From an uncultured Bacteroidales bacterium (lineage in GTDB: Bacteria > Bacteroidota > Bacteroidia > Bacteroidales > UBA932): a stretch of 64,000 bases of DNA. The stretch is from NCBI GenBank assembly GCA_900321715.1, contig ONXC01000008.1, forward strand, positions 81,677 through 145,676, written 5' to 3'. Numbering within the stretch: position 1 is the first letter of the stretch; each line of letters starts with the position of its first letter. Under the pieces are notes generated by a model. The model was not told the origin of the DNA. It saw nothing but the letters and a program-made list of their open reading frames with translations, and searched no databases. Both the position numbers and the translations under genes were made by a program. Shown here piece after piece: positions 1 through 64,000 of this stretch.

Positions 1-954
1 GTAGTGAAATTCGAGAACCAGATAGCAGCCACCAACCGCTCCAAGATTGCAGAGATGGACGCCCGCCTTGGAAACACTACCCTCCAGGGAGAACTGGCCC
101 ATCAGAAAGAGGAAGTCCAGAGCATTACGCGCCTGGTGCTTATCCTTGCAATAGCCATCCTGGTGGCCATCATGACCTTCCTTATAGTCCATATAAGTTC
201 CCTCCGCCGTTACAACAAGGAACTCCTGGAAGCCAACCGCAAAGTGAAACTGGCCGATGAAGCCAAGACCCGCTTCATCCAGAACATGAGCCATGAGGTC
301 CGTACGCCGCTAAACGCCATTGTGGGCTTCTCACAGCTCCTGTCCCTCCCTGACGGCTCCCTGAGCCCGGAAGAGAAGGACGAGTTCTCCTCCCACATCA
401 TCAACAACACCAAGATGCTCACGATGCTCCTTGACGACATCCTCAATGCATCGGCAATGGACAGCGGCAAATACAGTTTCACATTTGAAACCGCAGACAG
501 GGATTACATTGCCCAGCAGGCAATCTCCAGCTCAGAGCATCGCCTGCAGCCGGGCGTCACGCTCACATACGTCCCCGAGGAAAAAGAGCCTCTCCAGTTC
601 ACAACGGATCCCCGCCGCGTACAGCAGATCCTCATAAACCTCATCACAAACGCCTGCAAGCACACCAAAGAAGGCTCCATTGTGGTGGCAAGCTCACTTA
701 CGGAGACTCCGGGATTCCTCACCTACTCCGTGACCGATACCGGAACCGGTGTACCGCCGGAAGACGCCGAAAAGATTTTCGAGCGCTTCACCAAGCTCAA
801 CGACTACGTCCAGGGAACGGGCCTTGGCCTTAGTATCTGCCGCGACATAGCCGGCCGTATGGGCGGCAAGGTTTTCCTTGACACCACCCACACAGGAAAG
901 GGCGCACGCTTTGTATTCACGGTTCCGTTGGAGCCCGTAAAAAAGGAAGCATAA
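1..954 (+). CDS. Sensor histidine kinase, C-terminal part (cut by window edge)
   Basis: The frame is open at the first base, so this is the end of a longer gene. Counting from the GTG at base 4, residues 1-40 look like a coiled linker, 41-64 form one membrane helix, and a HisKA domain follows with the phospho-acceptor His97 in FIQNMSHEVRTPLN. The ATPase domain has the N box (NLITNACKH, 212-220), the G1 box (DTGTG, 245-249) and the G2 box (GTGLGL, 271-276), so the kinase core looks active. It would pass phosphate to a receiver; the receiver-only gene 30 bases downstream is the obvious partner. In this phylum such kinases often carry N-terminal TPR sensor repeats; that part lies outside the window. 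Confidence 0.9.
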   Translation, partial: VVKFENQIAATNRSKIAEMDARLGNTTLQGELAHQKEEVQSITRLVLILAIAILVAIMTFLIVHISSLRRYNKELLEANRKVKLADEAKTRFIQNMSHEVRTPLNAIVGFSQLLSLPDGSLSPEEKDEFSSHIINNTKMLTMLLDDILNASAMDSGKYSFTFETADRDYIAQQAISSSEHRLQPGVTLTYVPEEKEPLQFTTDPRRVQQILINLITNACKHTKEGSIVVASSLTETPGFLTYSVTDTGTGVPPEDAEKIFERFTKLNDYVQGTGLGLSICRDIAGRMGGKVFLDTTHTGKGARFVFTVPLEPVKKEA

Positions 955-983
955 GATTTATAGACTAATAAAGACTTTAATAT

Positions 984-1406
984 ATGACACCACTTTACGC
1001 ACAGGACCACGACTATTCCGCATTTAACGTGCTGGCCGTAGACGACATCCCCCTGAACCTCCTTCTGGTCCAGAAGATGCTCTCACGCTTCAATTTTAAG
1101 CTCCGGACTGCGGCCAACGGACAACTGGCCCTGGATGCAGTTGCACAACAGAAGCCGGACCTTATCCTGCTGGACCTCATGATGCCCGGCATTGACGGCT
1201 TTGAAGTTATCCGCCGGCTCAGGGAAGACCCCGAAACCGCAGACATCCAGATTGTGATCCTGAGCGCCCTCAACTCCAACGAGGACGTAATCAAGGGTTT
1301 CAACGTGGGGGCCAACGACTTCATCATGAAGCCCATCATCATGGAAAAGCTGCTCTCATGCGTGGTGAACCAGCTTGCCATTGCAAAGGCAAAGTCCGGA
1401 AAGTAA
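984..1406 (+). CDS. Stand-alone response regulator receiver
   Basis: A 140-residue CheY-like protein with a receiver domain and no output domain. Visible conserved positions are the acidic pair Asp20/Asp21, the phospho-acceptor Asp64 in LLDLMMPG, the switch residue Ser94 and Lys116 in MKP. It follows the histidine kinase on the same strand and probably takes phosphate from it. With no DNA-binding domain, it must act by protein contact or as a phosphorelay intermediate. The next gene starts within or just after its 3' end. Confidence 0.92.
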   Translation: MTPLYAQDHDYSAFNVLAVDDIPLNLLLVQKMLSRFNFKLRTAANGQLALDAVAQQKPDLILLDLMMPGIDGFEVIRRLREDPETADIQIVILSALNSNEDVIKGFNVGANDFIMKPIIMEKLLSCVVNQLAIAKAKSGK

Positions 1407-2748
1407 GCGTCTTATTTTGAGGAAATTCCTTCTATCGGCACTGGCGGCGCTTGTATGCGCTGCCGCCCCGGGGCAGATTGTAAACCGCCTCCGGGTGGAT
1501 CAGAAAACATTCATCCGCTACGCCTACGGCCGTATGCAGGAGTTCAGCTCAGACAATCTTCCCCTGGCCGATTCCCTGTACCGTGAAGGTGAGCTGCAGG
1601 GCAATTCCCGCCTCAAATGTCTGGGCCTTTCCCTTGAGATGCCCGTCCGCTATGCCCGAGGAGAATATGCCAGGATGGACAGCACGGTGGTAGAGATAAA
1701 GACTCTCCTTGCCGACAGAAAGGACCTCCGTGAGTTCTACTTCTCCACTCTCCACGAGTACTGCGAATTCCTTGTCCACACCGGCCGCGTCTCAGACGCC
1801 ATGCTTGAGGCAAGGGCCATGGAAAGGCTGGCTTCCCATGAGAGGAAGCCGCTTGGAAGGATGTATTCCTACAGGATTATCGGCCTTATCCAGAGCTACA
1901 GAGAAAACCACTATCTTGCCATCCAGAACCTTGAGAAGGCCGTGCGCTTCTGCCGCGAGGCCCGCGAAGAGCAGGACCTTCCCAACCTCTACATCCTCCT
2001 TGCCCAGGAGAACATCAAGATGCGCAATTTCCCGGAGGCCGACAACTACTGCCTCAGGGCTGAAGAATATGAGAGTTTCTTCCCCGCCATACGCATCAAG
2101 GCGCTCATGACAAGGGCGTACCTCAGCAATGCCGCCGGCAACGACAAAGCGTTCTGGAAGTACTACGACACCCTCCTCAATGAGCCACTATACGCCGTCC
2201 AGACAGACTCCGACACCCGCACCGGGCTGGACATCACCTACCTACGCTCCAAGGGACTTCTTGAAGAGGCCCTCCAGAAGGCCGATTCCCTTGGCACACT
2301 CCGCGGCCGCCTGGAGCAGAAGCACGGGATCTATGCCGATATGGGAGCTTTCGGAAACGCCTATGGGAATTTATCGGCCCTTATGCAGCAGAAGGACTCT
2401 GTGTACATCACCGTCCAGAACGAAGACCTTGCCATCCTGGACGCGGAAATGAATAACGCGCAGCTTCGGGAGGAGGCCCAAAGGCTGAAGTCCCAGAACC
2501 AGATCACAATCCTCCTTGGCTTCCTTGCCATGTTCGTGATTGCCTTTGCAACAGTGATCTACCAGCAGTGGAAGCTGAGGGACAATCTTGACCAGATGCG
2601 CCACATGTCGCAGGAGGCCGTCCAGGCCCGCCGCGCATTCAAGAAGGCAATGGACGCCAAGGAGTCGGAGAACTCTTACAAGATAAAACTACTGCAAAAC
2701 CGCACTACAAATATCCTCACGGACTATGAAGATATCCTCAATAGTTAA
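1375..2748 (+). CDS. TPR-type sensor-like membrane protein without kinase domain
   Basis: A secreted N-terminus (hydrophobic LLSALAALVCAAAPGQ) is followed by about 330 residues of helical repeats resembling TPRs, one membrane helix near residues 377-397, and a cytoplasmic coiled tail of about 60 residues. This is the layout of Bacteroidota TPR sensor kinases, but the protein stops where HisKA would begin. The ATG at 1375 overlaps the receiver gene by 32 bases; a TTG at 1417 would place the signal peptide at the very start and is a credible alternative. Function unknown. It may sense the same signal as the neighbouring kinase or act as a decoy partner. I see no frameshifted kinase remnant downstream. 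Confidence 0.75.
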   Translation: MPLQRQSPESKRLILRKFLLSALAALVCAAAPGQIVNRLRVDQKTFIRYAYGRMQEFSSDNLPLADSLYREGELQGNSRLKCLGLSLEMPVRYARGEYARMDSTVVEIKTLLADRKDLREFYFSTLHEYCEFLVHTGRVSDAMLEARAMERLASHERKPLGRMYSYRIIGLIQSYRENHYLAIQNLEKAVRFCREAREEQDLPNLYILLAQENIKMRNFPEADNYCLRAEEYESFFPAIRIKALMTRAYLSNAAGNDKAFWKYYDTLLNEPLYAVQTDSDTRTGLDITYLRSKGLLEEALQKADSLGTLRGRLEQKHGIYADMGAFGNAYGNLSALMQQKDSVYITVQNEDLAILDAEMNNAQLREEAQRLKSQNQITILLGFLAMFVIAFATVIYQQWKLRDNLDQMRHMSQEAVQARRAFKKAMDAKESENSYKIKLLQNRTTNILTDYEDILNS

Positions 2749-3148
2749 GAATCACTCAAACGAGATCCTGGCCGTAGTGATCTTCCTGGTGGGCGCCGTC
2801 CTGGGCCTTCTGGGACTCATCCAGATTGTACCCCTTTTAATTGGCGTTTTAGGCCTTATAATCCTCTCCAGTGGGCTCATCTACTTCTGCATCAAGTTCA
2901 CCTCTGAAAAGGCTTATAAGGAGTACTACAAGGAAAGCTACGAGATTGAGCACGAGTCCATTGAGGAAGTCACCCTCACCTCAATGCGCTATCACCGCTA
3001 TCAGGAAGCCGTGCTCTCCCGCTATGAGAGCGCCTGCCGTGACCTTGGCCTTGTGGACGAGCAAAAAGACTGGCTCCTGGACCTCCTTATGGCCGCCAAG
3101 AACAAGGTGGACGATCAGCTGGACCAGGAAGGCGGCGGACACATTTAA
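2726..3148 (+). CDS. Small two-helix membrane protein, unknown function
   Basis: A 140-residue protein that I do not recognise. Residues about 12-33 and 36-58 are two adjacent hydrophobic helices. The rest is a charged, mostly helical cytoplasmic tail rich in Glu, Lys and Tyr, with an Asp-rich end. It overlaps the preceding sensor-like gene by 23 bases in another frame, so the two are probably translated together. It likely belongs to the same signalling unit as the kinase and receiver, but nothing in the sequence fixes a function. Confidence 0.65.
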   Translation: MKISSIVKNHSNEILAVVIFLVGAVLGLLGLIQIVPLLIGVLGLIILSSGLIYFCIKFTSEKAYKEYYKESYEIEHESIEEVTLTSMRYHRYQEAVLSRYESACRDLGLVDEQKDWLLDLLMAAKNKVDDQLDQEGGGHI

Positions 3149-3163
3149 TTTACCCCTGCAAAG

Positions 3164-3194
3164 TTTGCATTTTAAAAAAATCTTAGTAACTTTG
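3164..3194 (+). promoter_or_regulatory. Promoter of tRNA-Val
   Basis: TTTG at 3164-3167 and TAACTTTG at 3187-3194 are separated by 19 bases, the classic Bacteroidota -33/-7 pair. The tRNA starts 15 bases after the -7 box. Confidence 0.85.
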
Positions 3195-3208
3195 CAGTCC
3201 CAAAATGA

Positions 3209-3283
3209 GGGCGGTTAGCTCAGCTGGTTCAGAGCACCTGCCTTACAAGCAGGGGGTCACTGGTTCGAATCCAGTACCGCCCA
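3209..3283 (+). tRNA. tRNA-Val (anticodon TAC)
   Basis: The cloverleaf is read directly. The acceptor arm GGGCGGT pairs with ACCGCCC, the D arm contains TAGCTCAGCTGGTTCAGAGC, the anticodon loop is CTTACAA with anticodon TAC, and the T arm holds GGTTCGAATCC. The discriminator is A and the 3' CCA is not fully encoded. It stands alone with its own promoter and terminator. Confidence 0.97.
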
Positions 3284-3286
3284 CAA

Positions 3287-3316
3287 AAAAAAGACAGCCG
3301 AGTGGCTGTCTTTTTT
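3287..3316. terminator. Bidirectional terminator hairpin
   Basis: GACAGCC and GGCTGTC form a stem around the loop GAGT. A-runs on one side and T-runs on the other make it work in both directions. It lies between tRNA-Val and the convergent outer-membrane protein gene and can serve both. Confidence 0.85.
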
Positions 3317-3318
3317 TT

Positions 3319-4245: not shown

Positions 4246-4261
4246 TTCTATATCTGATTAT

Positions 4262-12133: not shown

Positions 12134-13111
12134 ATGAAAAAAGTACTTCTGAGCATCCTCGCAGCCCTTGTGTGCTGCAGCGCCTTCTCCCAGCAGATCC
12201 GCACAAACTACCGCAGCGGCGGTTTTACGCATATCTCCACGGATTATGAGGATATAAAACTGGCCGATATCCCCTCTGAGATGAGGGTGGAGCTTGTGGG
12301 CCTTCCTGACGGTTCATCCATGTACCTTCTGTACATAAACCTCATCCAGAAAGAAGCCGTAGTTACGCCCAAGGGCGTGAAGATGTCGGCCACCCTGCCC
12401 TCCGGAAAGTTTATCCGCCTGGACCAGATAGGCCAGGATTCCGCCACAAAGAGGCGCAGGGAAGACGGCCTGTTCGTGAACAGGCTCAAGTATGCCGCAG
12501 AGCCTGCCGATATTGAGAAAATGATACGTGGTGTCAAATCCATAGACCTTGTGACCGGCTGGAACCCGGACGACTACGTCCAGGCGTCATTTGACCAGGA
12601 CCAGTTTGCAAAGCTCCTCAAATCCCACTGCGAGGCCATCCTGAAGGCATCGGAATCCACCATCGAACTAACTGCCACCATAGCCAGCCGCACGGATAAC
12701 GCGGGCAGCATCCTCACCGCTTCAAATCCCGTGGTAGCACGCGGAAAGGAGATGGACTACAACGTAATCCTTTCCCATCTCTACTACAAGAATACCGGCA
12801 ATGAGGACCTTGACCTTGCGGTAGTTATCGGCACATCCGGAAAGCACCACATCCCCTATGACGCTCCTGTCAGGTTCACCCTCCTTGACGGGTCGGAGAT
12901 CTCCCTCATTCAGACAAGGGACGACTATAACTTCTTCTACGTCTATCCTTCCCTTCAGGATTTCTACAGGATGGCATACGTGGGGATAGGAGCCATATCA
13001 ATAGAATGCGAGGACGGCATCCTTCAGGATACCATCCCCGCATCAGGTGAAGATTTCACTGCCGCAATTTCCCAGCAGCTCAATCTGCTTCTTTCGGTGA
13101 GCCCGCGCTAG
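12134..13111 (+). CDS. Secreted protein of unknown function
   Basis: About 325 residues from the ATG, with a clear signal peptide (MKKVLLSILAALVCCSAFSQ). I chose this ATG over a GTG 15 bases upstream because the promoter leaves almost no room for the longer form. The mature protein is mixed alpha/beta with no motif I recognise. It is probably periplasmic. It is a single-gene unit, divergent from the export operon and convergent with the GH109 gene. The two convergent genes share the palindrome CTAG as their overlapping stop codons. Confidence 0.75.
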   Translation: MKKVLLSILAALVCCSAFSQQIRTNYRSGGFTHISTDYEDIKLADIPSEMRVELVGLPDGSSMYLLYINLIQKEAVVTPKGVKMSATLPSGKFIRLDQIGQDSATKRRREDGLFVNRLKYAAEPADIEKMIRGVKSIDLVTGWNPDDYVQASFDQDQFAKLLKSHCEAILKASESTIELTATIASRTDNAGSILTASNPVVARGKEMDYNVILSHLYYKNTGNEDLDLAVVIGTSGKHHIPYDAPVRFTLLDGSEISLIQTRDDYNFFYVYPSLQDFYRMAYVGIGAISIECEDGILQDTIPASGEDFTAAISQQLNLLLSVSPR

Positions 13112-14481
13112 TGCGCAAAGGCGTAGCTGAAGCCCTGGATCTTGTCCCAGTCTCCGCGTGTGAAGTCAGGAATCTCCACGGGAACGCAGCCGTTCTCTAT
13201 TGAGATCCTGGAGAGTTCCGTCACGCAGCACCATTCGGCAAGGTCATACACGTCCATATCCAGCGGCAGGCCGTTGTTCAGGCAGTACACAAGGCGGTAG
13301 TCCATGATGAAGTCCATGCCGCCGTGGCCGCCCACTTCCTTTGCCAGAGCCTCAAGCTCAGGGGTGAGGATGGGGTTGCGGTACTTGGCCATAAGTTCCT
13401 CCAGCTCATCTCCTTCGTAGACTTTCTCAAACTCAAGGTCTTCGTAGTCCACTTCTCCGGTGGCTTCCGTCCTCAGGCATACCTGGCCCACGGGATACTT
13501 GGCGGCATAGCCGTCAGTGCCCACAAGCTGGTACATGCGGTCATACGGGCGGGGAGTCATTACGTCGTGCTCAATGAGGATGCTCTTGCCCTTTGCGGTA
13601 CGGATCATGGTCATGGTCTCATCACCGTTCTGGAAATCAGTGCAGGGCTTGCCGGTGCGTTTCTCAACAAGCTTGGGGCCGTTGAAAGCGTCCGTATCCA
13701 TAGCCACAAGGGTGGTGAGGCGGTCTCCGCGGTGGATATTGAGGGCCTGGCATACGGGGCCGAATCCGTGGGTGGGATAGAGGTCTCCCCTGTACTTCTG
13801 GTTGAAATCCAGGCGCCAGTTGTGCCAGTATTTGTCCCAGTAGGGATCAAGGTTGTGGTGGTAGGAGCCTTCCACGTGGATGATGTCACCAAACACACCC
13901 TGCTGTGCCATTGTGAGGGCTGTGAGCTCAAAGAAGTCGTAGCAGCAGTTCTCAAGGATCATGCAGTGCTTGCGGGTGCGCTCAGATGTGTTCACAAGGT
14001 CCCAGCAGGCCTCAAGGGTTTCTGCGGAAGGGACTTCAAGGGCAACGTGCTTTCCGTGCTCCATTGCATAGAGGGCCACGGGAACGTGGTGTACCCAGTC
14101 TGTGCAGATGTACACAAGGTCCACGTCAGGGTCTTCACAGAGCTGCTTGTAAACCTCTTCATCGCCGGCATATACCTTGGCGGTCATTCCGCGGCTTTCA
14201 AGGACCTTGAGGTTCTTTTCTGCCCTGTCCGGCTCTACGTCGCAGATGGCTGCCACGTGGCTTCCGGGAACAAAGGAAAGACGATGCACGGCACCGCTGC
14301 CGCGGTCTCCGAGGCCAACTACGCCGATACCTACATCGGCAATGGGCTCAGCGGCAAACTGAAGCATGGTTTCCTGACCCGCAGGACGGGCGGGGACGGG
14401 AGTCTTGATAATCTTTGCAGACTGGCTGCAGGAAACGGCGGCAAGGATTGCAGCCGTCAAGATGATGGCTCTTAGTTTCAT
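13108..14481 (-). CDS. Lipoprotein GH109-type Gfo/Idh/MocA glycosidase
   Basis: 457 residues. The N-terminus is a lipoprotein signal (LAAVSC, Cys18). A Rossmann NAD-binding motif follows (VVGLGDRGSG, about 54-63), then the family signatures YWDKYWHNW, YPTHGFGPV and HGGMDFIMDYRL. These match glycoside hydrolase family 109, whose characterised members are NAD-dependent alpha-N-acetylgalactosaminidases. The lipid anchor places it in the periplasm or on the surface. Its start overlaps the stop of the upstream kinase gene (ATGA), so release of a sugar and its phosphorylation appear coupled. Family members vary, so GalNAc specificity is an inference. Confidence 0.85.
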   Translation of the reverse strand: MKLRAIILTAAILAAVSCSQSAKIIKTPVPARPAGQETMLQFAAEPIADVGIGVVGLGDRGSGAVHRLSFVPGSHVAAICDVEPDRAEKNLKVLESRGMTAKVYAGDEEVYKQLCEDPDVDLVYICTDWVHHVPVALYAMEHGKHVALEVPSAETLEACWDLVNTSERTRKHCMILENCCYDFFELTALTMAQQGVFGDIIHVEGSYHHNLDPYWDKYWHNWRLDFNQKYRGDLYPTHGFGPVCQALNIHRGDRLTTLVAMDTDAFNGPKLVEKRTGKPCTDFQNGDETMTMIRTAKGKSILIEHDVMTPRPYDRMYQLVGTDGYAAKYPVGQVCLRTEATGEVDYEDLEFEKVYEGDELEELMAKYRNPILTPELEALAKEVGGHGGMDFIMDYRLVYCLNNGLPLDMDVYDLAEWCCVTELSRISIENGCVPVEIPDFTRGDWDKIQGFSYAFAH

Positions 14482-15530
14482 ATCTTTTCAATAAATTCTT
14501 TCATCTGAGGGACCTTTGCCATGGCGGCATGGAACAGGGCAACCTGGTTGCGGGTGCGCACAAGGTTGTGCTCCGGGTATTTGATCTTGTAGTAGGTGTC
14601 TCCGTTGATGTAATCGGCAAAGAAACGCACGGCCTGCATATAGGGGAACAGGCATGCGGCGTAAGGGAGGTTCTCCTTTTCAATGGGGGTGAGGAACACG
14701 TTTGCGCTCTCAAGATAGCCTTTTGCAAAGGCCTCGAAGATGTCCATCCTGAAGTCCACCTTCTCTACCTCCGGGCTGTCTTCGGCAACGGTGTTTGCGG
14801 CGGTGCGGAGGAAGTCTCCGAAGTCACTGAACACGAAGCTTGGCATGAGGGTGTCAAGGTCTATGACGCAGAGGATGTTGCCGTTCTTGTCAAAGAGCAT
14901 GTTGTTCACCTTTGTGTCGCAGTGGCAGATTCGCTTGGGAAGCTTGCCTTCACGGTAAAGGCGCTCGGCCTTGCACATCTCCTCCTCATAGGGCAGGAGG
15001 TCCTCAAGGATGGCCTTTACCTCCGGTTCTGCCATACGGCCTGATTTATTGGCCTTTACAGCCTCATGGAGCTGGCGGGCGCGGAGTTCCATGTTGTGGA
15101 AATCCGGGATGGTCTCTCCAAGGGTGTCGGGGATATCGGAGAGCATGGCCTCAAAGGCGCCGAATGCCTTTCCGGCATAGTATGAATACTCAGGATTGAC
15201 AGTCTCGAACGTGAGGGCGTTCTTGATGAAGATGGATACGCGCCAGTATTCCTTTCCGTCTGTCCAGTAGGTTTTGCCGGTTTCCTTGCAGGGGATGAAG
15301 GTGAGGGACATCTGGCCCTTGCGGCGGATATGTGCCGTGGCGCAGTCGATATTGTGCTGAAGCAGTTCAACGTCCTGGAAAATGGCGTTGTTGATTCTCT
15401 GGAGGACGTAATCATCCGGACCGTCGGTCTTCACCAGAAGGGTGTCGTTGATAAGACCGTTTCCAAGGGGTTTAATCTCCTTTACATTGCCTTTTATGGC
15501 AAAGAGTTTTACAATTTCAAGTGGTTCCAT
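14478..15530 (-). CDS. Sugar 1-kinase of the APH/NahK type
   Basis: 350 residues of the phosphotransferase (APH) fold. The catalytic loop HCDTKVNNMLFD near residue 201 gives the H-x-D-x4-N pattern, followed by the metal-binding DLDTL near 222; the N-terminal lobe has GNGLINDTLLV. The closest described function I know for this type is N-acetylhexosamine 1-kinase, which phosphorylates GalNAc or GlcNAc at C1. Translational overlap with a GH109 gene supports GalNAc as substrate. It is cytoplasmic with no signal. It is first of a two-gene operon with its own promoter 24 bases upstream. Confidence 0.8.
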   Translation of the reverse strand: MEPLEIVKLFAIKGNVKEIKPLGNGLINDTLLVKTDGPDDYVLQRINNAIFQDVELLQHNIDCATAHIRRKGQMSLTFIPCKETGKTYWTDGKEYWRVSIFIKNALTFETVNPEYSYYAGKAFGAFEAMLSDIPDTLGETIPDFHNMELRARQLHEAVKANKSGRMAEPEVKAILEDLLPYEEEMCKAERLYREGKLPKRICHCDTKVNNMLFDKNGNILCVIDLDTLMPSFVFSDFGDFLRTAANTVAEDSPEVEKVDFRMDIFEAFAKGYLESANVFLTPIEKENLPYAACLFPYMQAVRFFADYINGDTYYKIKYPEHNLVRTRNQVALFHAAMAKVPQMKEFIEKI

Positions 15531-15553
15531 CTGAATGAATAGTGTTATCTATG

Positions 15554-15561
15554 CAAAGTTA
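15554..15561 (-). promoter_or_regulatory. -7 box of the kinase-GH109 operon
   Basis: TAACTTTG on the minus strand, 23 bases before the kinase ATG. The -33 element is weak. Confidence 0.65.
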
Positions 15562-15633
15562 GTGTTTTTTTGCATACGAAACACCCCCTGTTTCGAAAAA
15601 CGTTTCAAAGGGTTTCGGAGTGACGCAGAACAA

Positions 15634-15659
15634 TAAAAAAAGCCGCCCGGGAAGGCGGC
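15634..15659 (-). terminator. Terminator of tRNA-Arg
   Basis: GCCGCC and GGCGGC form a GC-rich stem directly downstream of the tRNA on the minus strand, followed by a run of seven T. Confidence 0.85.
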
Positions 15660-15664
15660 CAGTG

Positions 15665-15738
15665 TGATTCCGACGCGATTCGAACGCGTGACCCACAGCT
15701 TAGAAGGCTGTTGCTCTATCCAGCTGAGCTACGGAACC
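15665..15738 (-). tRNA. tRNA-Arg (anticodon TCT)
   Basis: Read on the minus strand: acceptor GGTTCCG pairs with CGGAATC, the D arm holds TAGCTCAGCTGGATAGAGC, the anticodon stem ACAGC/GCTGT encloses loop CTTCTAA (anticodon TCT), and the T arm holds CGTTCGAATCGCG. The discriminator is A and no CCA is encoded. It has its own promoter and terminator. Confidence 0.97.
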
Positions 15739-15754
15739 ATCCTCAATGGGACTG

Positions 15755-15785
15755 CAAAGTTAGTTATTTTTCCGCTAATTGCAAA
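15755..15785 (-). promoter_or_regulatory. Promoter of tRNA-Arg
   Basis: On the minus strand TTTG (15782-15785) and TAACTTTG (15755-15762) are 19 bases apart, the same architecture and -7 octamer as the tRNA-Val promoter. Confidence 0.85.
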
Positions 15786-15797
15786 CGTAGAGGGCCT

Positions 15798-17171
15798 CTA
15801 CTGCACAAAGCTTGCGAAGTAGCCGGCGAAGAATACGTTGGTTATGAGATAGCCGATGATGGTGGAGACAAATACGCATATTAGTCCCGGCATCATGAAG
15901 CTGTGGTTCAGGAGGTATTTGCCGATAACCGTGGTACCGGAGCGGTCGAAGTTCACGGTGGCGATATCGGACGGATAGTTGGGGATGAAGAAGTAACCGT
16001 ACACGCTGGGAAGGACGCCAAGGAGCACGGGGCCGGCGATTCCAAGCTCATAGGCCAGGGGCAGCATGGCCACAACCACGGCGCCCTGGGAGTTGATGAG
16101 AACGGATACCAGGAAGAACACGAACGCTATGCTCCAGGGGTAGTTTGTGACAAGGCCCGTGAGCATCTCCTTCATCTGGTCCATGTAGTTTCCAAAGTAG
16201 GTATCGGCCAGCCAGGCAATGCCGTAGATTGCCACAACGGCAACCATTCCGGACTGCCACACGGCTCCTGCAACGGCTTTTTTGGGCTGGGCCTTGCAGA
16301 AGATGATGTTGGCTGCTGCGGCCGTGAGCATGATTATCTGGATGCAGATGTTCATCTTGGGAAGGTTGATGGTCTTGGCTAGCGAGACTCCGTCAATCTT
16401 TATCATCTGGCAGAATGCGAATCCCACAATCACAAGGAGGGCGCCAAGGAACACGAATACAGATGCCTTTGCCTCTTTGGTGATTTCCTTGTCAAGGGTG
16501 GTGGCGCTGTGGCCGTACATGTACTGGTACATCTCGGGATCGGCCTTACGGGCAAGGAAGTCAGGGTCCTTGTCAAGGTCCTTACCTCTCTTGTAGGATG
16601 CCGCGGCGGCGCACATGAGGCCGCACACGCATGCCGGAATTGTAACCATCAGGACCTGGGGGATGCTCACCATGTAGCCGTTGGCGTTTGAAATTGTAAC
16701 AAATGCCACCACGGCGGCCGCAATGGGAGAGCAGGTGATACCCACCTGGGAGGCAACGGATGCCACGCCGCAGGGACGCTCAGGGCGGATATTCTTCTTG
16801 AGGGCAATGTCACAGATGATGGGCATGATGGTATAAACCACGTGGCCTGTACCAACCAGGACGGTAAGGAAGAAAGTCACAAGAGGACCCAGGAAAGTGA
16901 TGTGCTGGGGGTTTTTGCGCAGCATTCTCTCTGCAATCTGGATCATCCAGTCCATACCTCCGGATGCCTGCAGGGTGCCGGCGCAGGTTACGGCCGCGAT
17001 GATGATATAGATAACGTCCGTGGGGGGCGTGCCGGGTTTGAGGCCAAAGCCGAATACAAGGATAGCAAGGCCGATACCGCTGATTGCTCCAAGGGCCAGT
17101 GACCCGTAGCGGGAGCCCACGTACAGTGCTGCCAGAACGATGAGCAGCTCGATGATCATAGTGAAAGTCAT
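15798..17171 (-). CDS. dcuB: Anaerobic C4-dicarboxylate transporter (DcuA/DcuB family)
   Basis: About 457 residues of a polytopic inner-membrane protein close in pattern to E. coli DcuB: LKPGTPPTDVIYIII, TLQASGGMDWMIQIAERMLRKNP, GTGHVVYTIMPI and NIRPERP. It exchanges fumarate, malate or aspartate for succinate during anaerobic growth, which suits a fumarate-respiring Bacteroidales. A longer reading to 17393 exists but would be antisense to the GH109 gene; I chose the ATG at 17171 (a second one at 17159 gives MIIELLIVLAALY and is equally typical). It is a single-gene unit. DcuA versus DcuB cannot be separated with certainty. Confidence 0.88.
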   Translation of the reverse strand: MTFTMIIELLIVLAALYVGSRYGSLALGAISGIGLAILVFGFGLKPGTPPTDVIYIIIAAVTCAGTLQASGGMDWMIQIAERMLRKNPQHITFLGPLVTFFLTVLVGTGHVVYTIMPIICDIALKKNIRPERPCGVASVASQVGITCSPIAAAVVAFVTISNANGYMVSIPQVLMVTIPACVCGLMCAAAASYKRGKDLDKDPDFLARKADPEMYQYMYGHSATTLDKEITKEAKASVFVFLGALLVIVGFAFCQMIKIDGVSLAKTINLPKMNICIQIIMLTAAAANIIFCKAQPKKAVAGAVWQSGMVAVVAIYGIAWLADTYFGNYMDQMKEMLTGLVTNYPWSIAFVFFLVSVLINSQGAVVVAMLPLAYELGIAGPVLLGVLPSVYGYFFIPNYPSDIATVNFDRSGTTVIGKYLLNHSFMMPGLICVFVSTIIGYLITNVFFAGYFASFVQ

Positions 17172-20437: not shown

Positions 20438-21028
20438 CTAGCTGTTCTTTTTGAGGAATTTGTTAAACAGTACCATAAGATAGCCAAGGCACAGGAATGC
20501 GCCGGGAGCCATCACGAATGCCAGCATGCCGTCTGCGCCGCCGGTAAAGCTCCAGCCAAATGCGCTTCCGGAGCCAAGTATCTCACGCACAAGACCAAGT
20601 ACGGTAAGTGAGCAGGTGAAACCAAGGCCCACTCCAATACCGTCCAGTGCGCTCTCCCCTACGCCGTGCTTGTTGGCAAAAGCCTCAGCGCGGCCAAGGA
20701 CTATGCAGTTCACCACGATAAGCGGGATGAAAAGGCCCAGGGTCTCATACATGGCCGGGGTGTAGGCCTGCATGAGGAACTGAAGCAGGGTCACAAACGT
20801 AGCAATCACCACAATGTACACGGGAATGTGCACCTTATCCGGAACAACCGGAGCAATGAGGGAGATTGCCATGTTGGAAAGGACCAGCACAAAGAGAGTG
20901 GCCAGGCCCATTGAGAGGCCGTTTATGGCCGATGTAGTTGTGGCCAGCGTGGGGCACATACCCAGCAGGAGCACAAAGGTGGGGTTGTTCTTGACAAGCC
21001 CGTCTGTCAGAAGTTTGAATTTACTCAT
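20438..21028 (-). CDS. rnfE: RNF complex subunit RnfE
   Basis: About 196 residues with six membrane helices, from MSKFKLLTDGLVKNNP. The signature Cys motifs are GMCPTLA and VNCIVLGRAEAFA. I chose the ATG at 21028 because a strong Shine-Dalgarno (AAGGAGG), unusual in this window, lies 8 bases before it; an ATG 18 bases upstream (MKEDRT) would put that site inside the gene. It overlaps the end of rnfG by 8 bases. It forms the ferredoxin-to-NAD electron path with RnfA, D and G. Confidence 0.95.
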   Translation of the reverse strand: MSKFKLLTDGLVKNNPTFVLLLGMCPTLATTTSAINGLSMGLATLFVLVLSNMAISLIAPVVPDKVHIPVYIVVIATFVTLLQFLMQAYTPAMYETLGLFIPLIVVNCIVLGRAEAFANKHGVGESALDGIGVGLGFTCSLTVLGLVREILGSGSAFGWSFTGGADGMLAFVMAPGAFLCLGYLMVLFNKFLKKNS

Positions 21029-22598: not shown

Positions 22599-23972
22599 TT
22601 ACTTTTTAGCGGCTTCAGCGGCGGCCTTTGCGGCAGCGGCACGGGCGCGGATGGCACCCATGGCCAGGCCTTTACCCAGACGTACCCAGTCCAGCAGAGG
22701 AATGTTGGCGGGGCAGGAATACAGGCAGCAGCCGCACTCGATGCAGTCGTGGGCGGCATTTGCCTCCAGGGCCTCTACATCGGCATTACGGGACAGCTTT
22801 TGGAGAAGGAAGGGTTCAAGACCCATGGGGCAGGCATCGGCACAGCGGCCGCAGCGGATACATTCAGATTCCGGTGCGCGGCGTGTCTGGGCCTCAGTGA
22901 GAAGAAGGAGTGCACCTGTTCCCTTCACGGTTGCGGCGTCAAGGTTAGAGACGGCACGTCCCATCATTGGGCCGCCGCTGATAACCTTGGCTGCATCGGC
23001 AGGAATACCTCCAAGGTAATCCAGGATGTAGCGCAGAGGGGTTCCCACGCGCACCAGGAGGTTTGCCTGGTTGGGGAAGCACTCACCGGTAACGGTTACG
23101 GAGTTGTCCACAATGGGCTTGTTCTTCTGGACGGCATCATAGACCGCCAGAGCGGTTGCAACGTTCTGGACGACGGCGCCAACGCTGATAGGAAGGGCGC
23201 CTGAACCAACCTGACGATGCATCACAGCATCAATGAGCTGTTTTTCACCGCCCTGCGGATACATCATCTTCATCTCCATCACCTCAATGCCCTCATAGCC
23301 AAGCTTTGCAATTACTTCGCGGATATGGGCAATGGCCTCGGGCTTGTTTTCCTCAATTGCAATGGTGCAGGGGACATTACCCATCACCTGCCTCAGGATA
23401 GCGGCTCCAACCACCACCTGCTCTCCCTTTTCAAGGAGGGTGCGGAAGTCGGAGGTGAGGTAAGGCTCACATTCGCAGCCGTTTATGATAACTCTCTCGC
23501 ACTTTGATCCGGGAGGCGGGGAAAGCTTCACGTGAGTGGGGAAGGTTGCACCGCCAAGGCCCACAACGCCGCCAAGGCGGATCTTCTCCACAATGGCCTT
23601 GTTGTCGGAGGGAATCTCCGTGACGAGGGTATCGGTGGTATCAATTCCATCGGCCCATTCATCACCTTCCACGGCAATCTCAATATGCGTGACGGGACGT
23701 CCGGCAAGGTCCGGGCGGGGGCCGATAGATTTAACGGTTCCTGAAACGGAGGAGTGGATGAAGGCGCTCACAAAGCCGCCGGGCTCTGCAATCACCTGAC
23801 CCACCTTCACTTTGTCACCAACGGCAACGCAGGGAACGGAGGGCGCGCCAATGTGCTGTGCCACAGAAATATACACTGTGGGTGCAAGAGGCAGGGGGCA
23901 AATGGGGCAGCCCCTTGAAATCTTGCTGTCGTGCGGATGAACACCGCCGATGGAGAATGTTCTCTTACTCAT
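22599..23972 (-). CDS. rnfC: RNF complex subunit RnfC (NADH-binding, two 4Fe-4S)
   Basis: 457 residues. An N-terminal barrel-sandwich starts at TFSIGGVHPHDSK, the NADH/FMN Rossmann region contains GLGGATFPTHVKL, and an SLBB domain follows. Two ferredoxin motifs are CIRCGRCADACPMGLEP and CIECGCCLYSCPANIP. The C-terminus is an Ala/Lys-rich tail. It is the cytoplasmic subunit that reduces NAD+. It overlaps rnfB by 8 bases. The length is typical for Bacteroidota and shorter than the tail-extended enterobacterial form. Confidence 0.96.
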   Translation of the reverse strand: MSKRTFSIGGVHPHDSKISRGCPICPLPLAPTVYISVAQHIGAPSVPCVAVGDKVKVGQVIAEPGGFVSAFIHSSVSGTVKSIGPRPDLAGRPVTHIEIAVEGDEWADGIDTTDTLVTEIPSDNKAIVEKIRLGGVVGLGGATFPTHVKLSPPPGSKCERVIINGCECEPYLTSDFRTLLEKGEQVVVGAAILRQVMGNVPCTIAIEENKPEAIAHIREVIAKLGYEGIEVMEMKMMYPQGGEKQLIDAVMHRQVGSGALPISVGAVVQNVATALAVYDAVQKNKPIVDNSVTVTGECFPNQANLLVRVGTPLRYILDYLGGIPADAAKVISGGPMMGRAVSNLDAATVKGTGALLLLTEAQTRRAPESECIRCGRCADACPMGLEPFLLQKLSRNADVEALEANAAHDCIECGCCLYSCPANIPLLDWVRLGKGLAMGAIRARAAAAKAAAEAAKK

Positions 23973-28399: not shown

Positions 28400-29186
28400 T
28401 ATGCATCACAAAATAGTGGACGGGATTGCTCCTGTCCAGCGTGCCGGATGAATAGCTTGCAAAGGTAGGAAAATTTTTCCGTATTTGCGTAAGCAAAATG
28501 TCCACAATGTCAACTTCGCTCTCAAAATGGCCGATATCCATCACCATGAAGCCATCCCGGGTGAAGAAATTGTGATAAGATACATCGGCCGTGATATAAA
28601 GCTGCGCTCCGGCACAGAAGGCCGATTCAATCTCCGAGCCTCCGCTTCCGCCAAGCACCGCAACGCGGCTGATAGGGCCCGGGGTGGGCCTTGAGCTTCT
28701 GATAAGAGTAAGGCCGAAAGCCTTCCCCACATACTCCAGAGCCTCATTTCCGGAAAGCGGCCGGGGCAGGGTGCCAATGCACCCAAGGCCATTCCCGCAT
28801 GCATCCTTCTCAAGGATCTCAATGTTCTGAAGGCCAAGCTTAAGGGCCATTGCCCAGCTCACGCCCTGAGGCACTTTATCGGCCGATGTATGGGCGGCAT
28901 AAACCGCCACCCCGCTGCGGATTGCTGCCATTACGGTGGCCCCCACAGGATCCTGAGGCCCAATCTGCTTGAGCCCGTGGAAAATGAGCGGATGATGCGT
29001 CACAACCATGTTGCAGCCCCTTGAGAGAGCTTCCTCAATGAGCTCCACGGTGCAGTCAAACCCCACCAGGACCCCCTTCACCTCATCCTCCGGACCCCCT
29101 ATGAGAAGCCCGCTGTTGTCCCAGCACTCCTGCACCCCGCGGGGTGCAAACGCCTCTATGGCCCTTACGATGTCCTTTACCTGCAT
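28395..29186 (-). CDS. Nif3-like dinuclear metal protein
   Basis: 263 residues of the NIF3/DUF34 family: VKDIVRAIEAFAP at the start, the metal-binding histidines of THHPLIFHG and AAHTSADK, and DIGHFESE near the end. It forms hexameric dinuclear-metal rings; a GTP cyclohydrolase-like fold is discussed but the function is not settled. It is the short form, without the 100-residue inserted domain found in many relatives. It overlaps the MerR-type gene by 10 bases. Confidence 0.9.
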   Translation of the reverse strand: MQVKDIVRAIEAFAPRGVQECWDNSGLLIGGPEDEVKGVLVGFDCTVELIEEALSRGCNMVVTHHPLIFHGLKQIGPQDPVGATVMAAIRSGVAVYAAHTSADKVPQGVSWAMALKLGLQNIEILEKDACGNGLGCIGTLPRPLSGNEALEYVGKAFGLTLIRSSRPTPGPISRVAVLGGSGGSEIESAFCAGAQLYITADVSYHNFFTRDGFMVMDIGHFESEVDIVDILLTQIRKNFPTFASYSSGTLDRSNPVHYFVMHK

Positions 29187-30410: not shown

Positions 30411-31546
30411 TACTTCCTGTTACGGTTCTTACGGCGTTTCTTACGTTTTTTCTCAGGATCAAACCTGTTGATTGCATCGTCACCCACGGCCGATACAAAC
30501 TCAGGAGAGCGCTCCGGCTCTTCCTGAAGCGTGGCGGGACGCTCACCGCGGCGGTTCATGGCCTGGATCTCCCTCACTTCATCGGCCGATAATCCATAAA
30601 CCTTAGCAAGAGAGCCCTTCTCGTAGGAGAAATACAGCATCCCGGCAAGGATGTCAGTCTTCACAAGGAAAGCCTGGCCGTCCTCAAGTTCAAGGGGTTC
30701 GTTAACGCGGGGAAGGCGTGAACGGGCATCCGTGTATGCTGCAACCTCATAATTGAGACAGCACTTTAGCTTTCCGCACTGGCCGGCAAGCTTCTGGGGA
30801 TTCAGGGAAAGGTCCTGGACGCGGGCGGCTGCGGTGGTGATGGACTTGAACTCCGTGATGTAGTTGGCGCAGCACAGCTCACGGCCGCAAACGCCAAGGC
30901 CGCCAATGAGGCCGGCCTCCTGACGGGCGCCAATCTGCTTCATCTCTACGCGGATATGGAATTCCTCCGCGAAATCCTTGATAAGCTGACGGAAGTCCAC
31001 GCGGCCATCGGCAATGTAATAGAAGATGGCCTTGGTGCCGTCTCCCTGGAACTCCACATCCCCTATCTTCATCTCCAGACCAAGGTTTGCGGCAAGCACG
31101 CGGGCGCGGATCATGGTCTCCTCCTCGCGGGCAATTGCCTCCTGCCAGCGCTGGATGTCAAAGGGGCGCGCTTTACGGTATATTTTCTTGAGTTCCTGCT
31201 GCGCAGGGTCTACGCCCTTGCACTTCATCTGGCGGGCAACCACGGGGCCCTCAAGGGTAACAATTCCTAGGTCGTGCCCGGTTGCGGCCTCTACCACAAC
31301 AAGGTCTCCGGTCTTGATACTCTGGCCGGAAGCATTCACGTAGATGCCCTTACGGGTGTTCTTGAAACGGACCTCGAAGTAGCCGTCCCACTGCTCCTGG
31401 GCTATGCCCTTGAGGGTATCATATACCTCAAGCTTGCAGCAGCCCTGACGGTAGCGTATATCTTTTTCTCCCGATTCCTCGTCTGTCACAACCGTACAGC
31501 CGCGGAAGCAGTCGAACTGGATTGATTCATTGCTATAATCTTTCAT
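30410..31546 (-). CDS. PSP1-domain protein (YaaT/RicT-like)
   Basis: 378 residues. The PSP1 C-terminal domain region contains the conserved cysteine pairs CGRELCC and CGKLKCC and the block DFRQLIKDFAEEFHIRVEMKQIGARQEA. The C-terminus is a Lys/Arg tail (KKRKKRRKNRNRK) likely to bind RNA or DNA. In Bacillus the relative YaaT/RicT binds an iron-sulfur cluster and aids RNase Y-dependent RNA processing and sporulation; a similar RNA-linked role is possible here, while sporulation is not. It overlaps the holB-like gene by 4 bases, and its neighbours (holB-like, trmB) match the usual synteny. Confidence 0.87.
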   Translation of the reverse strand: MKDYSNESIQFDCFRGCTVVTDEESGEKDIRYRQGCCKLEVYDTLKGIAQEQWDGYFEVRFKNTRKGIYVNASGQSIKTGDLVVVEAATGHDLGIVTLEGPVVARQMKCKGVDPAQQELKKIYRKARPFDIQRWQEAIAREEETMIRARVLAANLGLEMKIGDVEFQGDGTKAIFYYIADGRVDFRQLIKDFAEEFHIRVEMKQIGARQEAGLIGGLGVCGRELCCANYITEFKSITTAAARVQDLSLNPQKLAGQCGKLKCCLNYEVAAYTDARSRLPRVNEPLELEDGQAFLVKTDILAGMLYFSYEKGSLAKVYGLSADEVREIQAMNRRGERPATLQEEPERSPEFVSAVGDDAINRFDPEKKRKKRRKNRNRK

Positions 31547-41754: not shown

Positions 41755-42492
41755 TTACATCCTAATTGTAAAAGTGCAGCGGAGTTCTTCTTTTCTAAAA
41801 GGAACAGCCGCATCTGGATTTGTTATTCTGTCGTTAATCCAATGTAGGTAGTTAACAACAGTTACTGGGATGCGTATGCTGAAAGTTATGTCTTCTTTTG
41901 ATACGTTACTGGAGTCTAACGGGATTTTTATGCCAAAACCTTTCTCCATCAAATAATTATAATCGAGAGGTATATCCAAATATGAACCGGCCTTGTCTTC
42001 TTTATTAAAAGGTGAGATTATTTCATGTAGATATGGTGAGAGTTCATCATAAGCATCGTGTCCCGCGAAGGGCTTGTCCGCAGTGAATGATATTCCTCCC
42101 GAATATAATATTGTGACAATAGAAAAGTGACTCCCTTGATTGCCAAGGCCAGCAACTAACTTATTCATTATTGCATTATATTCTTCTTCAACCATCTTTG
42201 AATTGCTGCCGAAAGATGAAAAAAGATTATTATCTGGAGTGTGATAATACGGATATGGGGAGTAATCGCTTTCCTTAGAGTGTATGTTAGACAGATCTAG
42301 ACGAAATCCAAAATGAAAATAACCGTCACTATCCAATTCTGTATGAGCAAGAGTCAATTCTGGACTGACCAAACACTCTCCAGTCAGAAATTCATATTCT
42401 TTTGCCGGCGTACCCCATGGATGATGACTACATGCACAAATAATCATTCCAGATACAATAACAGTGACGAGAATTATAGAATATTTATTCAT
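41755..42492 (-). CDS. Orphan lipoprotein, unknown function
   Basis: About 245 residues from MNKYSIILVTVIVSG with lipobox IICACSHH. The mature protein is rich in Ser, Asp and Tyr and probably beta-structured; I do not recognise a family, though its size and style resemble small Bacteroidota lipoproteins of unknown function. The gene is AT-rich, uses codons such as TTA, ATA and AGA more than its neighbours, and has no GGCCGAT word, all of which suggest recent acquisition. No clear promoter is seen. Confidence 0.65.
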   Translation of the reverse strand: MNKYSIILVTVIVSGMIICACSHHPWGTPAKEYEFLTGECLVSPELTLAHTELDSDGYFHFGFRLDLSNIHSKESDYSPYPYYHTPDNNLFSSFGSNSKMVEEEYNAIMNKLVAGLGNQGSHFSIVTILYSGGISFTADKPFAGHDAYDELSPYLHEIISPFNKEDKAGSYLDIPLDYNYLMEKGFGIKIPLDSSNVSKEDITFSIRIPVTVVNYLHWINDRITNPDAAVPFRKEELRCTFTIRM

Positions 42493-42588
42493 TTGCCGAG
42501 AATCCATAGGTCATATAAAAGTTATTATAACTATAATTCTTTAGACACAATAATGATGCTTTTTTTTTCAAAACGTTGCACTTACGAG

Positions 42589-58091: not shown

Positions 58092-58131
58092 AAAGGGCCT
58101 TCCGGAGGGCTCTGGAGTGGTATAATCTTCA

Positions 58132-58139
58132 TATATTTG
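58132..58139 (+). promoter_or_regulatory. -7 box of the Ig-like/LRR genes
   Basis: TATATTTG, 22 bases before the ATG. No good -33 element, as expected for an activator-dependent promoter. Confidence 0.65.
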
Positions 58140-58161
58140 GGCGAACCAGAATAGTAAAGCC

Positions 58162-59097: not shown

Positions 59098-59116
59098 CCA
59101 TTAAAGATTGAAAGCC

Positions 59117-61771: not shown

Positions 61772-61798
61772 TATTTGCCCGGCTTAAAGTGAATTTGG

Positions 61799-61990: not shown

Positions 61991-62000
61991 AATTAATCGA

Positions 62001-62990
62001 ATGGAACGCAAAATCAACACTATCGGCGTACTTACCTCAGGCGGAGACGCCCCCGGAATGAACGCAGCCATCAGGGCCGTCACCCGCAGCGCCCGCTACC
62101 ACAACATGAACGTGGTTGGAATCATGAGGGGCTATCAGGGACTCATAGAGAAGGAGTTCGTGAAATTTACCTCATCGTCGGTATCCAATACTATCCAAAG
62201 AGGCGGCACCATCCTCAAAACCGCACGCTGTGGCGCTTTCATGACCCCCGAAGGTCGAAAGACCGCCTATGACAATATGGTGGAGGCGGGAATTGACGCC
62301 CTGATTGTAATTGGCGGAAATGGCTCACTTACAGGTGCCCAGCTCTTCGCCAGGGAGTACGACATCCCCATTATCGGCCTTCCTGGCACCATAGACAACG
62401 ACCTTTATGGCACGGACTCCACAATTGGCTACGACAGCGCCCTCAACACCATAGTTGAATGCGTGGACAAAATCCGCGACACCGCAAATTCCCATGACCG
62501 CATCTTCTTCATAGAGGTAATGGGCCGTGATGCCGGTTTTCTGGCCCAGAACAGCGCAATCGCTTCCGGTGCAGAGGCCGCAATTATCCCCGAGGACTCC
62601 ACGGACGTAGACCAGCTGGCCGAATTCATCGAAAGAGGCAAGCGCAAATCCAAGAACAGCGCCATAGTGCTGGTCTCCGAAGCCCAGAAGAACGGCGTGG
62701 GCGGCGCTTTCTATTATGCCGAAAGAATCAAGAAGGAGTACCCCCAGTTTGACGCCCGCGTCACCATCCTCGGTCACCTGCAGAGGGGTGGTACACCTTC
62801 GGCCTATGACCGTATCCTGGCATCCCGTATGGGTTATGCCGCCATTGAGGCTCTGCTGGAAGGCCAGCGCAACATCATGGTGGGCATAAAGAACGACGAA
62901 ATTGTGTACGTCCCCATCTCCCGCGCCATCAAGATGGACAAACCCATTAACAAAGAACTCATCGCAGTTCTCAACGTGCTATCGATGTAA
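62001..62990 (+). CDS. pfkA: ATP-dependent 6-phosphofructokinase
   Basis: 329 residues of the short bacterial PFK type. Blocks: [25 protein letters not shown], the catalytic [29 protein letters not shown] and [12 protein letters not shown]. The Gly in GGNGS (where many have GGDGS) suggests ATP rather than pyrophosphate may still be used, but the D-to-N change is worth noting. It phosphorylates fructose 6-phosphate in glycolysis. Its stop overlaps the lpxK start (TAATG). Confidence 0.93.
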
Positions 62991-63988
62991 TGATTTACGG
63001 TCTTTGGCTGAGGCTTAGGCACCTTGCCTACAATAAGGGCTGGAAAAAGAGTTTCAAGGCCGATGTCCCCACCGTCTGCGTGGGCAACATCACGACCGGC
63101 GGCACCGGCAAAACCCCTCATGTGGAGATGCTCCTCCACTACCTCCGTGTCAGCGACAAATGGGGCTACAGGCCTGTTGCCGTGCTTTCAAGAGGGTATA
63201 AGCGCAAATCCCGCGGCTTCCAGATCGTGAAGCCGGATTCATCGGCCTCCTTCTGTGGGGATGAACCCCTGCAGATTGCCCGCAAATTCCACGGCGTAAC
63301 CGTTGCAGTAGACAAAGACCGCGTGGAGGGTTGCCGCAAGCTTGACGCCGACATAATAGTCCTTGACGACGCCTTCCAGTATCGAAGGCTCTGCCCCAGC
63401 CTCAGCATAGTCCTGGTAGATTATTGGAGGCCAATCTGGGAAGACAGGCTTCTCCCCTGGGGCCGCCTCCGGGATCTCCCTTCCCGTATTCTCAAGGCCG
63501 ATGTAGTGATAGTCACAAAATGTCCACCGGAGCTGGATAGCTGGTCCCGTCAGGAGTTCGGCCGAAAACTGGGCCTGAGGCCTGAGCAGAAGCTCTTTTT
63601 CACATGCATCCGCTACCTCCCTCCGGAGCCCGTTTTCCCGGAAGCCGATGCCCGTTACACCTACTCCAACAAGACCATACTTGTTTCCGGAATAGCCAAC
63701 GACGCCCCTCTCAGAAGCTATCTCTCAGATACTTACAAGATTGTGAAGCGTCTCTCTTACCCGGATCACCACCGCTTTGGGAAGGCCGATATCCGCGCCA
63801 TGGCTTCCGCGGTCAAGGCTGCTCCCACGGCCTGCCTCATAACCACGGAAAAAGACGCCCAGCGCCTCCGCGAGGTCAAGGTTGTGCCGGATTCCCTCAG
63901 GCAGCGCCTTTTCTACCTCCCCATAGAGGCCGCTTTTGTCTCTGAAGATGACGAGAAGGCGTTTGTGGAGATACTGGACAAGGTATGA
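62990..63988 (+). CDS. lpxK: Tetraacyldisaccharide 4'-kinase
   Basis: 332 residues. An N-terminal membrane-associated helix leads into the Walker A loop VCVGNITTGGTGKTPHVEML, and DDAFQYRRL and SYPDHHRFGKADI are further family blocks. It phosphorylates the 4' position of the lipid A precursor. It is translationally coupled to pfkA. No gene follows in the last 12 bases. Confidence 0.95.
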   Translation: MIYGLWLRLRHLAYNKGWKKSFKADVPTVCVGNITTGGTGKTPHVEMLLHYLRVSDKWGYRPVAVLSRGYKRKSRGFQIVKPDSSASFCGDEPLQIARKFHGVTVAVDKDRVEGCRKLDADIIVLDDAFQYRRLCPSLSIVLVDYWRPIWEDRLLPWGRLRDLPSRILKADVVIVTKCPPELDSWSRQEFGRKLGLRPEQKLFFTCIRYLPPEPVFPEADARYTYSNKTILVSGIANDAPLRSYLSDTYKIVKRLSYPDHHRFGKADIRAMASAVKAAPTACLITTEKDAQRLREVKVVPDSLRQRLFYLPIEAAFVSEDDEKAFVEILDKV

Positions 63989-64000
63989 TTCTGTATCTTA

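Follow-up and report, generated by a model that had tools for sequence, protein, structure and literature searches.

We analysed a 64,000-nt stretch of DNA from the genome of an uncultured Bacteroidales bacterium, hereafter the window, in which the heptamer GGCCGAT recurs on both strands. The word occurs 103 times, 58 times on the plus strand and 45 times on the minus strand, where it reads ATCGGCC. This corresponds to about 1.6 copies per kb, against an expectation of 9.0 copies under an order-2 Markov model. A sequence-only reading of the same DNA had counted about 100 copies (about 55 and 45) where base composition predicted about 10, and both figures were borne out. The features of the window are the following:

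1..64000, both strands (58 +, 45 -): window with 103 GGCCGAT, from word count and order-2 model
28878..28887, no strand: ATCGGCCGAT, an overlapping word pair forming a palindrome, from sequence match
30581..30590, no strand: ATCGGCCGAT, a second overlapping word pair, from sequence match
41755..42507, minus strand: AT-rich open reading frame (ORF), GC 0.37, without GGCCGAT, from the ORF list
59108-61771, strand not given: 887-aa ORF with one GGCCGAT, from the ORF list
12269..16202 (gap 12262-16203), no strand: longest word-free stretch of the window, from word positions

The two perfect palindromes reported by the sequence-only reading at 28878 and 30581 are both present. The word is absent, as claimed, from the ORF at 41755 that had been labelled a lipoprotein (0 copies in 41755-42507) and nearly so from the gene that had been labelled 'LRR' (leucine-rich repeat; 1 copy in 59108-61771). 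The 12.3-16.2 kb stretch described as wordless is indeed free of GGCCGAT, but its length is ordinary for random placement: by arithmetic, a longest gap of about 3.9 kb matches what is expected among 721 spacings with a mean of 541 bp. The stretch was thus rejected as a meaningful feature.

The density seen in the window holds for the whole genome (G000; 2,044,722 bases in 29 contigs, 80.6% complete), where 3,279 copies were counted, 1,662 and 1,617 by strand, again about 1.6 per kb, against 226 copies of the reversed word used as a control. The abundance of GGCCGAT is real and genome-wide, and chance or base composition was rejected as its source by comparing the window and genome counts with the Markov expectation. 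The null for the genome itself was based on 427,807 of the 2,044,722 bases. Here GGCCGAT was the most deviant 7-mer by the order-2 model, with 742 copies against 61.5 expected, and models of order 3, 4 and 5 returned expectations of 125, 296 and 667. The order-5 value lies close to the observed count because the excess is already contained in the hexamer GCCGAT, which occurs 1,106 times against 177 by the order-2 model. According to the sequence-only reading, its claim would fall if the word were no commoner than its 6-mers predict; taken to the letter, the count is nearly explained in this way (667 against 742), but the hexamer is itself in excess.

The excess was also evaluated within genes, which for the codon nulls and for the placement and orientation tests were ORFs called by our own scripts, without a gene finder. 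In 250 ORFs (342 kb), a within-gene shuffle of synonymous codons gave 85 expected copies, and a shuffle that also preserves neighbouring bases gave 78, against 615 observed. GGCCGAT ranked first among all 7-mers under both nulls, with an excess of 7.2-7.9x. Both gene strands were enriched (343 copies each, where 50.4 and 38.9 were predicted); among the classes of frame and orientation, the four frequent ones stood at 4.5-21x expectation and the two rare ones at 3 copies against 1.4 and 4 against 0.7. Density climbs with the GC content of the gene, and the excess over the shuffles was 5.4-8.7x in four GC classes of 20 to 142 genes each, the two extreme classes consisting of one gene each. The uncalled DNA (61 kb), which takes in contig ends and missed genes, holds 70 copies where the order-2 and order-3 models predict 8.4 and 13.8; the short gaps between genes, with 17 copies in 16.4 kb, provide a cleaner intergenic figure.

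The word bends codon choice as the sequence-only reading had described. In 381 kb of called genes, serine was encoded by TCG in 256 of 505 cases where GCC followed and in 364 of 7,355 cases where it did not; aspartate was encoded by GAT in 434 of 532 cases after GCC and in 2,094 of 6,751 otherwise. The Ala-Asp pair occurs at 1.10 of expectation in G000, at 0.98-1.30 in seven word-rich sets of sequences and at 0.81-1.28 in 13 others, and a strong drive at the amino-acid level was rejected on these ratios. Protein composition is shifted little, with at most a slight rise in Ala-Asp, and therefore the word settles mainly at synonymous positions.

The placement of the copies is close to random. 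Strand counts over 21 contig pieces tended, if at all, to be better balanced than chance predicts (chi2 9.5, df 21), which answers the suggestion of the sequence-only reading to look for strand bias at the level of contig pieces, the origin not having been located. Within called genes, 331 copies are sense and 337 antisense (668 lying wholly inside), distributed as 292/212 in frame 2, 35/121 in frame 0 and 4/4 in frame 1. The earlier statement that copies lie in all frames thus holds only loosely, since every frame is occupied but frame 1 by just these few. Spacing is exponential (mean 541, coefficient of variation 1.01 over 721 spacings) and the counts in 2-kb bins follow a Poisson-like distribution (mean 3.47, variance 3.60); the word is weakly depleted at gene ends. 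At short range, spacings peak at the 3-bp overlap only (16 cases), and even spacing and terminator-like inverted pairs were rejected on this basis.

The word is better spelled KGCCGAT, then R. In G000 TGCCGAT reaches 3.7x and GGCCGAA 1.95x over the codon null, which denotes graded specificity. In the flanks, T or A is favoured at -2, A is favoured and C avoided at position 8, and G is avoided at position 10. The flanks of GGCCGAT show no preference for completing the palindrome, and the full palindrome was rejected as the true site on these preferences. Several near-words are rarer than expected, with GACCGAT at 0.21, GCCCGAT at 0.20 and GGCCGAC at 0.47 of expectation; no single near-word was depleted alone.

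Conservation of the copies was tested in six of 18 aligned relatives (L089, L090, L091, L093, L094, L098), and in all six GGCCGAT is kept better than the average 7-mer. In L089, with 93.6% DNA identity, 20 of 23 words were kept against 0.66 for the average 7-mer; the corresponding values were 8 of 21 against 0.21 in L091, 8 of 19 against 0.22 in L093, 5 of 15 against 0.25 in L094 and 7 of 23 against 0.20 in L098. The result was weaker in L090 (12 of 22 against 0.40), where three of ten frequent 7-mers rank above GGCCGAT. When retention was ranked among the frequent 7-mers (5-21 compared), the word came first in L089, L091 and L094, second in L093 and L098 and fourth in L090. One-mismatch states in the aligned relatives, counted by pooling the relatives and hence not independent, fall at all seven positions and most often at position 7 (C 20, G 11, A 6). 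Three copies followed in the alignment illustrate the range:

20927..20933, plus strand: copy unchanged in 8 of the 16 relatives aligned there, TGCCGAT in 2 and GGCCGAA in 2
28529..28535, plus strand: copy unchanged in 13 of the 17 relatives aligned there
23720..23726, plus strand: copy unchanged in 7 of the 18 relatives aligned there

At the site at 20927, L101, a relative with TGCCGAT, belongs to a genome whose sample favours that spelling.

Among 36 genomes of the same genus, GGCCGAT counts range from 103 to 3,333 and those of the reversed control from 87 to 390, while in 24 genomes of other families the word occurs 2 to 898 times, the highest value being found in 4.4 Mb with a control of 562. 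Two genomes combine a high ratio with a low density, namely G036 of the same genus (632 copies against 87 reversed in 2.2 Mb) and G053 of another family (474 against 34 in 2.7 Mb). In G056, also of another family, the strands are unequal (383 and 224).

The distribution was placed on a tree of RnfC, whose relatives were gathered from metagenome-assembled genomes, with the word counted in 24 of those genomes. RnfC identity to the protein of the window is 61-92% within the genus, one genome with a split match having been set aside, and the 67% identity to the RnfC of a Candidatus Cryptobacteroides record falls inside this span, so that the genus may be the one named Cryptobacteroides in GTDB. 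Several of the closest relatives bear the names of ruminant hosts or organs, which makes the ruminant gut a likely origin. The tree, built on this single gene, comprises 44 of 100 extracted rows, those with whole-genome counts, and includes two duplicates with equal counts (G003 = L140 and G017 = L105). All 16 rows with at least 0.75 words per kb, a mark chosen after the counts had been seen and with genome sizes rounded, fall in one 21-row clade with SH-aLRT support of 99, together with five low rows (L096, L144, G034 and G003 = L140). Outside this clade none of 23 rows reaches the mark, the highest standing at 0.51, and the fewest changes needed for the word-rich state on the tree are two. 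GGCCGAT is thus bound to one clade of the RnfC tree.

Variant spellings were evaluated against the codon null in 20 sets of relatives with 33-96 kb of coding sequence each, which were picked after looking and some of which pool several genomes; the small samples G001, G002 and G030 say little in the order-2 comparison. GGCCGAT stood at 3.3-7.4x in seven of the 20 sets, all of the word-rich clade, and at 0.1-1.6x in the 13 others. TGCCGAT reached 4.0x in G073 and 4.1x in G062, and GGCCGAA 2.8x in G062, 2.2x in G080 and 0.6x in G073; the whole genome of G080, with 1,506 GGCCGAA against 497 of the reversed control, agrees with its sample. GTCGATG stood at 2.8x in G073 and 2.2x in L140+L144. CATCGAC/GTCGATG was enriched in both orientations in L140, L144, L149 and the G073 sample and, being one base off GCCGATG, is possibly a further dialect. 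In single loci (9-19 kb of coding sequence), GGCCGAT was among the top three words of L089, L091, L093, L097, L098 and L101.

A different and weaker word, GAATAT, was found at 1.7-2.5x in both orientations in G079, G081, G033 and L106+L110+L142, again under the codon null. The palindrome GAATATTC occurs in the GAATAT samples (L109, L118, L106, L110, L142, G033) 45 times against 13. L109 (= G079), L118 (= G081), G033 and L106 lie together in another supported clade of seven rows; L110 and L142 are outside the RnfC tree, and G020 of the GAATAT clade was not among the samples. Against GAATAT as a clade word, G017/L105 of the same clade lacks it among its top words, and G028 (1.6x) and L130..136 (1.5x) approach the lower end of its range. 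The palindrome TCCGGA was observed at 1.4-2.5x codon expectation in 18 of the 20 sets, word-rich and word-poor, the exceptions being G081 and G014. In L147 the top 7-mers were AACAGTC (13 against 1.1), CAGTCCA (11 against 0.7) and AGTCCAA (12 against 1.2), which may reflect a repeat dispersed in the genome or a further word.

Candidate readers of the word were sought among uptake genes and methyltransferases, as the sequence-only reading had advised. Two proteins of G000 are relevant here:

L232:7267-8355, plus strand: ComEC, 362 aa
L233:10809-13592, plus strand: MmeI-type restriction-modification protein, 927 aa, with all five MmeI domains

DprA was found in 24 of 24 genomes searched and ComEC in 23 of 23 genomes of the genus, word-rich or not. 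The check for competence genes thus had a mixed outcome, with DprA and ComEC present, ComEC short, and the pilus-type ATPase below cut-off in the word-rich genomes G000, G005 and G019. In the G000 ComEC the competence domain alone was found, and in other families ComEC measured 691-713 aa in eight of 13 genomes with a match. The expected cognate methyltransferase did not emerge from the three families searched, which do not track the word: PF01555 (10 of 24 genomes, 9 above cut-off), PF00145 (4 of 24) and PF07669 (16 of 24, 9 above cut-off) occur here and there in genomes both rich and poor in the word. Complete or nearly complete matches to the MmeI-type protein are present in six of 40 genomes, among which only G000 has at least 0.75 words per kb; short matching stretches were seen in G065, G070 and G081.

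Several explanations can be confronted with these data. An ordinary codon or codon-pair bias, which the sequence-only reading had itself named as able to refute its claim, would fit the fact that, by frames, a few codon pairs (GCC-GAT, TCG-GCC, ATC-GGC) hold most copies. However, the seven- to eightfold excess remains after the codon- and context-preserving shuffles, unrelated codon pairs are bent alike on the two strands, and the uncalled DNA holds 70 copies against 8.4. Codon-pair bias does not explain a word that is enriched in sense, in antisense and in uncalled DNA, and this account, refuted by the shuffles and the orientation counts, is of negligible probability. Directed mutation or very-short-patch repair turning one near-word into GGCCGAT would agree with the scarcity of GACCGAT, GCCCGAT and GGCCGAC, but the depletion is spread over several near-words with no lone one, and mismatches occur at every position in relatives. 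Both facts argue against one-base conversion, which was rejected on them and appears highly improbable, the Vsr family not having been part of the search. A site of the Chi type, read by a RecBCD or AddAB enzyme, would be short, asymmetric and overrepresented, as GGCCGAT is, and Chi sequences vary between lineages. However, a 65:35 skew of the 742 copies would by arithmetic add about 67 to the chi2 of 9.5, and sense and antisense use is equal. Without skew and with random placement, Chi-like use does not explain the word; we disfavour it as very unlikely, although less so than repair conversion.

Three readings in terms of DNA handling are left, which we order as kin-DNA handling, a chromosomal protein site and methylation. 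Asymmetric words with a single adenine resemble targets of one-strand methylation, and the MmeI-type enzyme of G000 has a target recognition domain. GGCCGAT could thus be the target of a DNA methyltransferase and owe its abundance to methylation-directed mismatch repair, as Elhai proposes for HIP1 (PMC4390886), or to a restriction-modification partner. Against this, the three families are sporadic, the word-rich G065, G066, G067 and G073, for which completeness is not given, have none of them, and the MmeI-type protein does not follow the word, PF02384 and Dam-type families being outside the search across genomes. A methyltransferase link was rejected just for PF01555, PF00145, PF07669 and the MmeI-type enzyme, and methylation in general seems improbable. 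GGCCGAT may instead be bound by a chromosomal protein of high abundance, with a role in the nucleoid, in segregation or in repair, and be weakly selected at thousands of sites as HIP1 might be. The above-average conservation, the graded specificity and the flank preferences would suit such a site, uptake genes would not be required, and HIP1 and its derivatives substitute for each other between strains (PMC4390886). Random placement without spacing or orientation preference, save the weak depletion at gene ends, speaks against it, and the variation of the word between related clades would require a changing reader; we consider this reading unlikely, although it stands second in our order.

We tentatively favour, with somewhat less than even confidence, reading KGCCGAT(R) as a clade-specific recognition word. 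A sequence-specific step in the DNA handling of the cell would read it; most likely, kin DNA would be taken up or incorporated with a bias for the word, and word-bearing variants would enter or survive more often through recombination. Words would then accumulate at random sites where a synonymous fit is possible, and the spelling would drift along with the changing reader protein. We infer that such a protein exists and acts in DNA uptake or recombination. With greater reserve, we suggest a self-DNA recognition system in a Bacteroidales clade, with its own spelling KGCCGATR, dialects in related species and no type IV pili. Several observations weigh against biased kin-DNA handling. The pilus/secretion ATPase PF00437 was above cut-off in one of 23 genomes of the genus, the word-poor G016, and the word-rich G000, G005 and G019, those covered by a search that left out G028 and G061-G084, gave only matches below it (20.6 bits against 24.9 in G000, a genome 80.6% complete). 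ComEC is short, with 362 aa in G000 and an in-frame length of 351-406 aa in all but one of the 23 genomes, and DprA and ComEC are equally present in word-poor relatives. HIP1-like words of unclear purpose yield similar statistics, and in the single loci L090, L092, L095 and L114 of word-rich genomes (about 9-18 kb of coding sequence, codon null) GGCCGAT is outside the top three words.

Reiterated genomic words are known from few lineages; the reason for them is well supported in Neisseriaceae and Pasteurellaceae and is not known to be so elsewhere. Such a system would have no precedent known to us in Bacteroidales; a narrow literature search, with few subscription papers and no bioRxiv, found nothing relevant on a word of this kind in Bacteroidetes or on GGCCGAT as a methylation motif. 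A strong word bound to one clade of gut Bacteroidales, with variants in its relatives, would point to DNA being exchanged often and with a sequence bias, and would allow one to predict between which species this happens. Comparing clades with different words also offers a handle for finding the reader protein.

Chi sites are short, asymmetric and overrepresented, as is GGCCGAT, and are usually skewed to the leading strand; unlike them, the word has no strand skew per contig piece, the origin not being located. Unlike the footprint of very-short-patch repair, it is accompanied by no depletion of one specific near-word. The likeness to uptake words or to HIP1 proposed by the sequence-only reading stands for the density, the presence on both strands and the tree-linked variant spellings, and fails for a tracking methyltransferase in the three families searched, a pilus-type ATPase above cut-off in the three word-rich genomes covered, and palindromic form. 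HIP1 (GCGATCGC) of cyanobacteria is, like GGCCGAT, a genome-wide word of unclear purpose and has derivative words in some strains; it is a palindromic octamer that holds the sites of two orphan methyltransferases. GGCCGAT is instead asymmetric, its flanks have no palindrome preference, and the methyltransferases searched (three families and one enzyme, without PF02384 and Dam) do not track it.

The closest parallel appears to be with the DNA uptake sequences (DUS) of Neisseriaceae and the uptake signal sequences (USS) of Pasteurellaceae, which are likewise short asymmetric words in up to thousands of copies with tolerated near-words. Frye et al. (PMC3630211) report counts comparable to those found here, with 5,918 kingDUS in 2.4 Mb, 2,426 wadDUS and 943 copies in N. 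cinerea, and a DUS dialect spelling congruent with the core-genome tree. GGCCGAT shares with them the great excess over a codon-preserving expectation (7.2-7.9x; 3,279 copies), the nearly equal orientations without strand bias, and dialects congruent with phylogeny, here on the single-gene RnfC tree and small variant samples. It differs in its core of 7-8 bp against 9-12, and in that no type IV pilus ATPase passed the threshold in G000, G005 and G019, the word-rich genomes covered. In the same phylum, Bacteroidota, Riemerella anatipestifer is competent, and no type IV pilus or type IV secretion system (T4SS) homologue is reported to have been found in it (PMC6533540). The missing pilus ATPase therefore speaks against a DUS of the known kind and not against uptake in Bacteroidota. 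R. columbina prefers its own DNA in transformation competition, a self-preference like the one considered here, although its commonest words are A-rich runs (PMC7965970, Table 3) and GGCCGAT is independent of composition. By the defining features tested, the word is not classed as DUS, HIP1 or Chi, and it seems to behave most like DUS.

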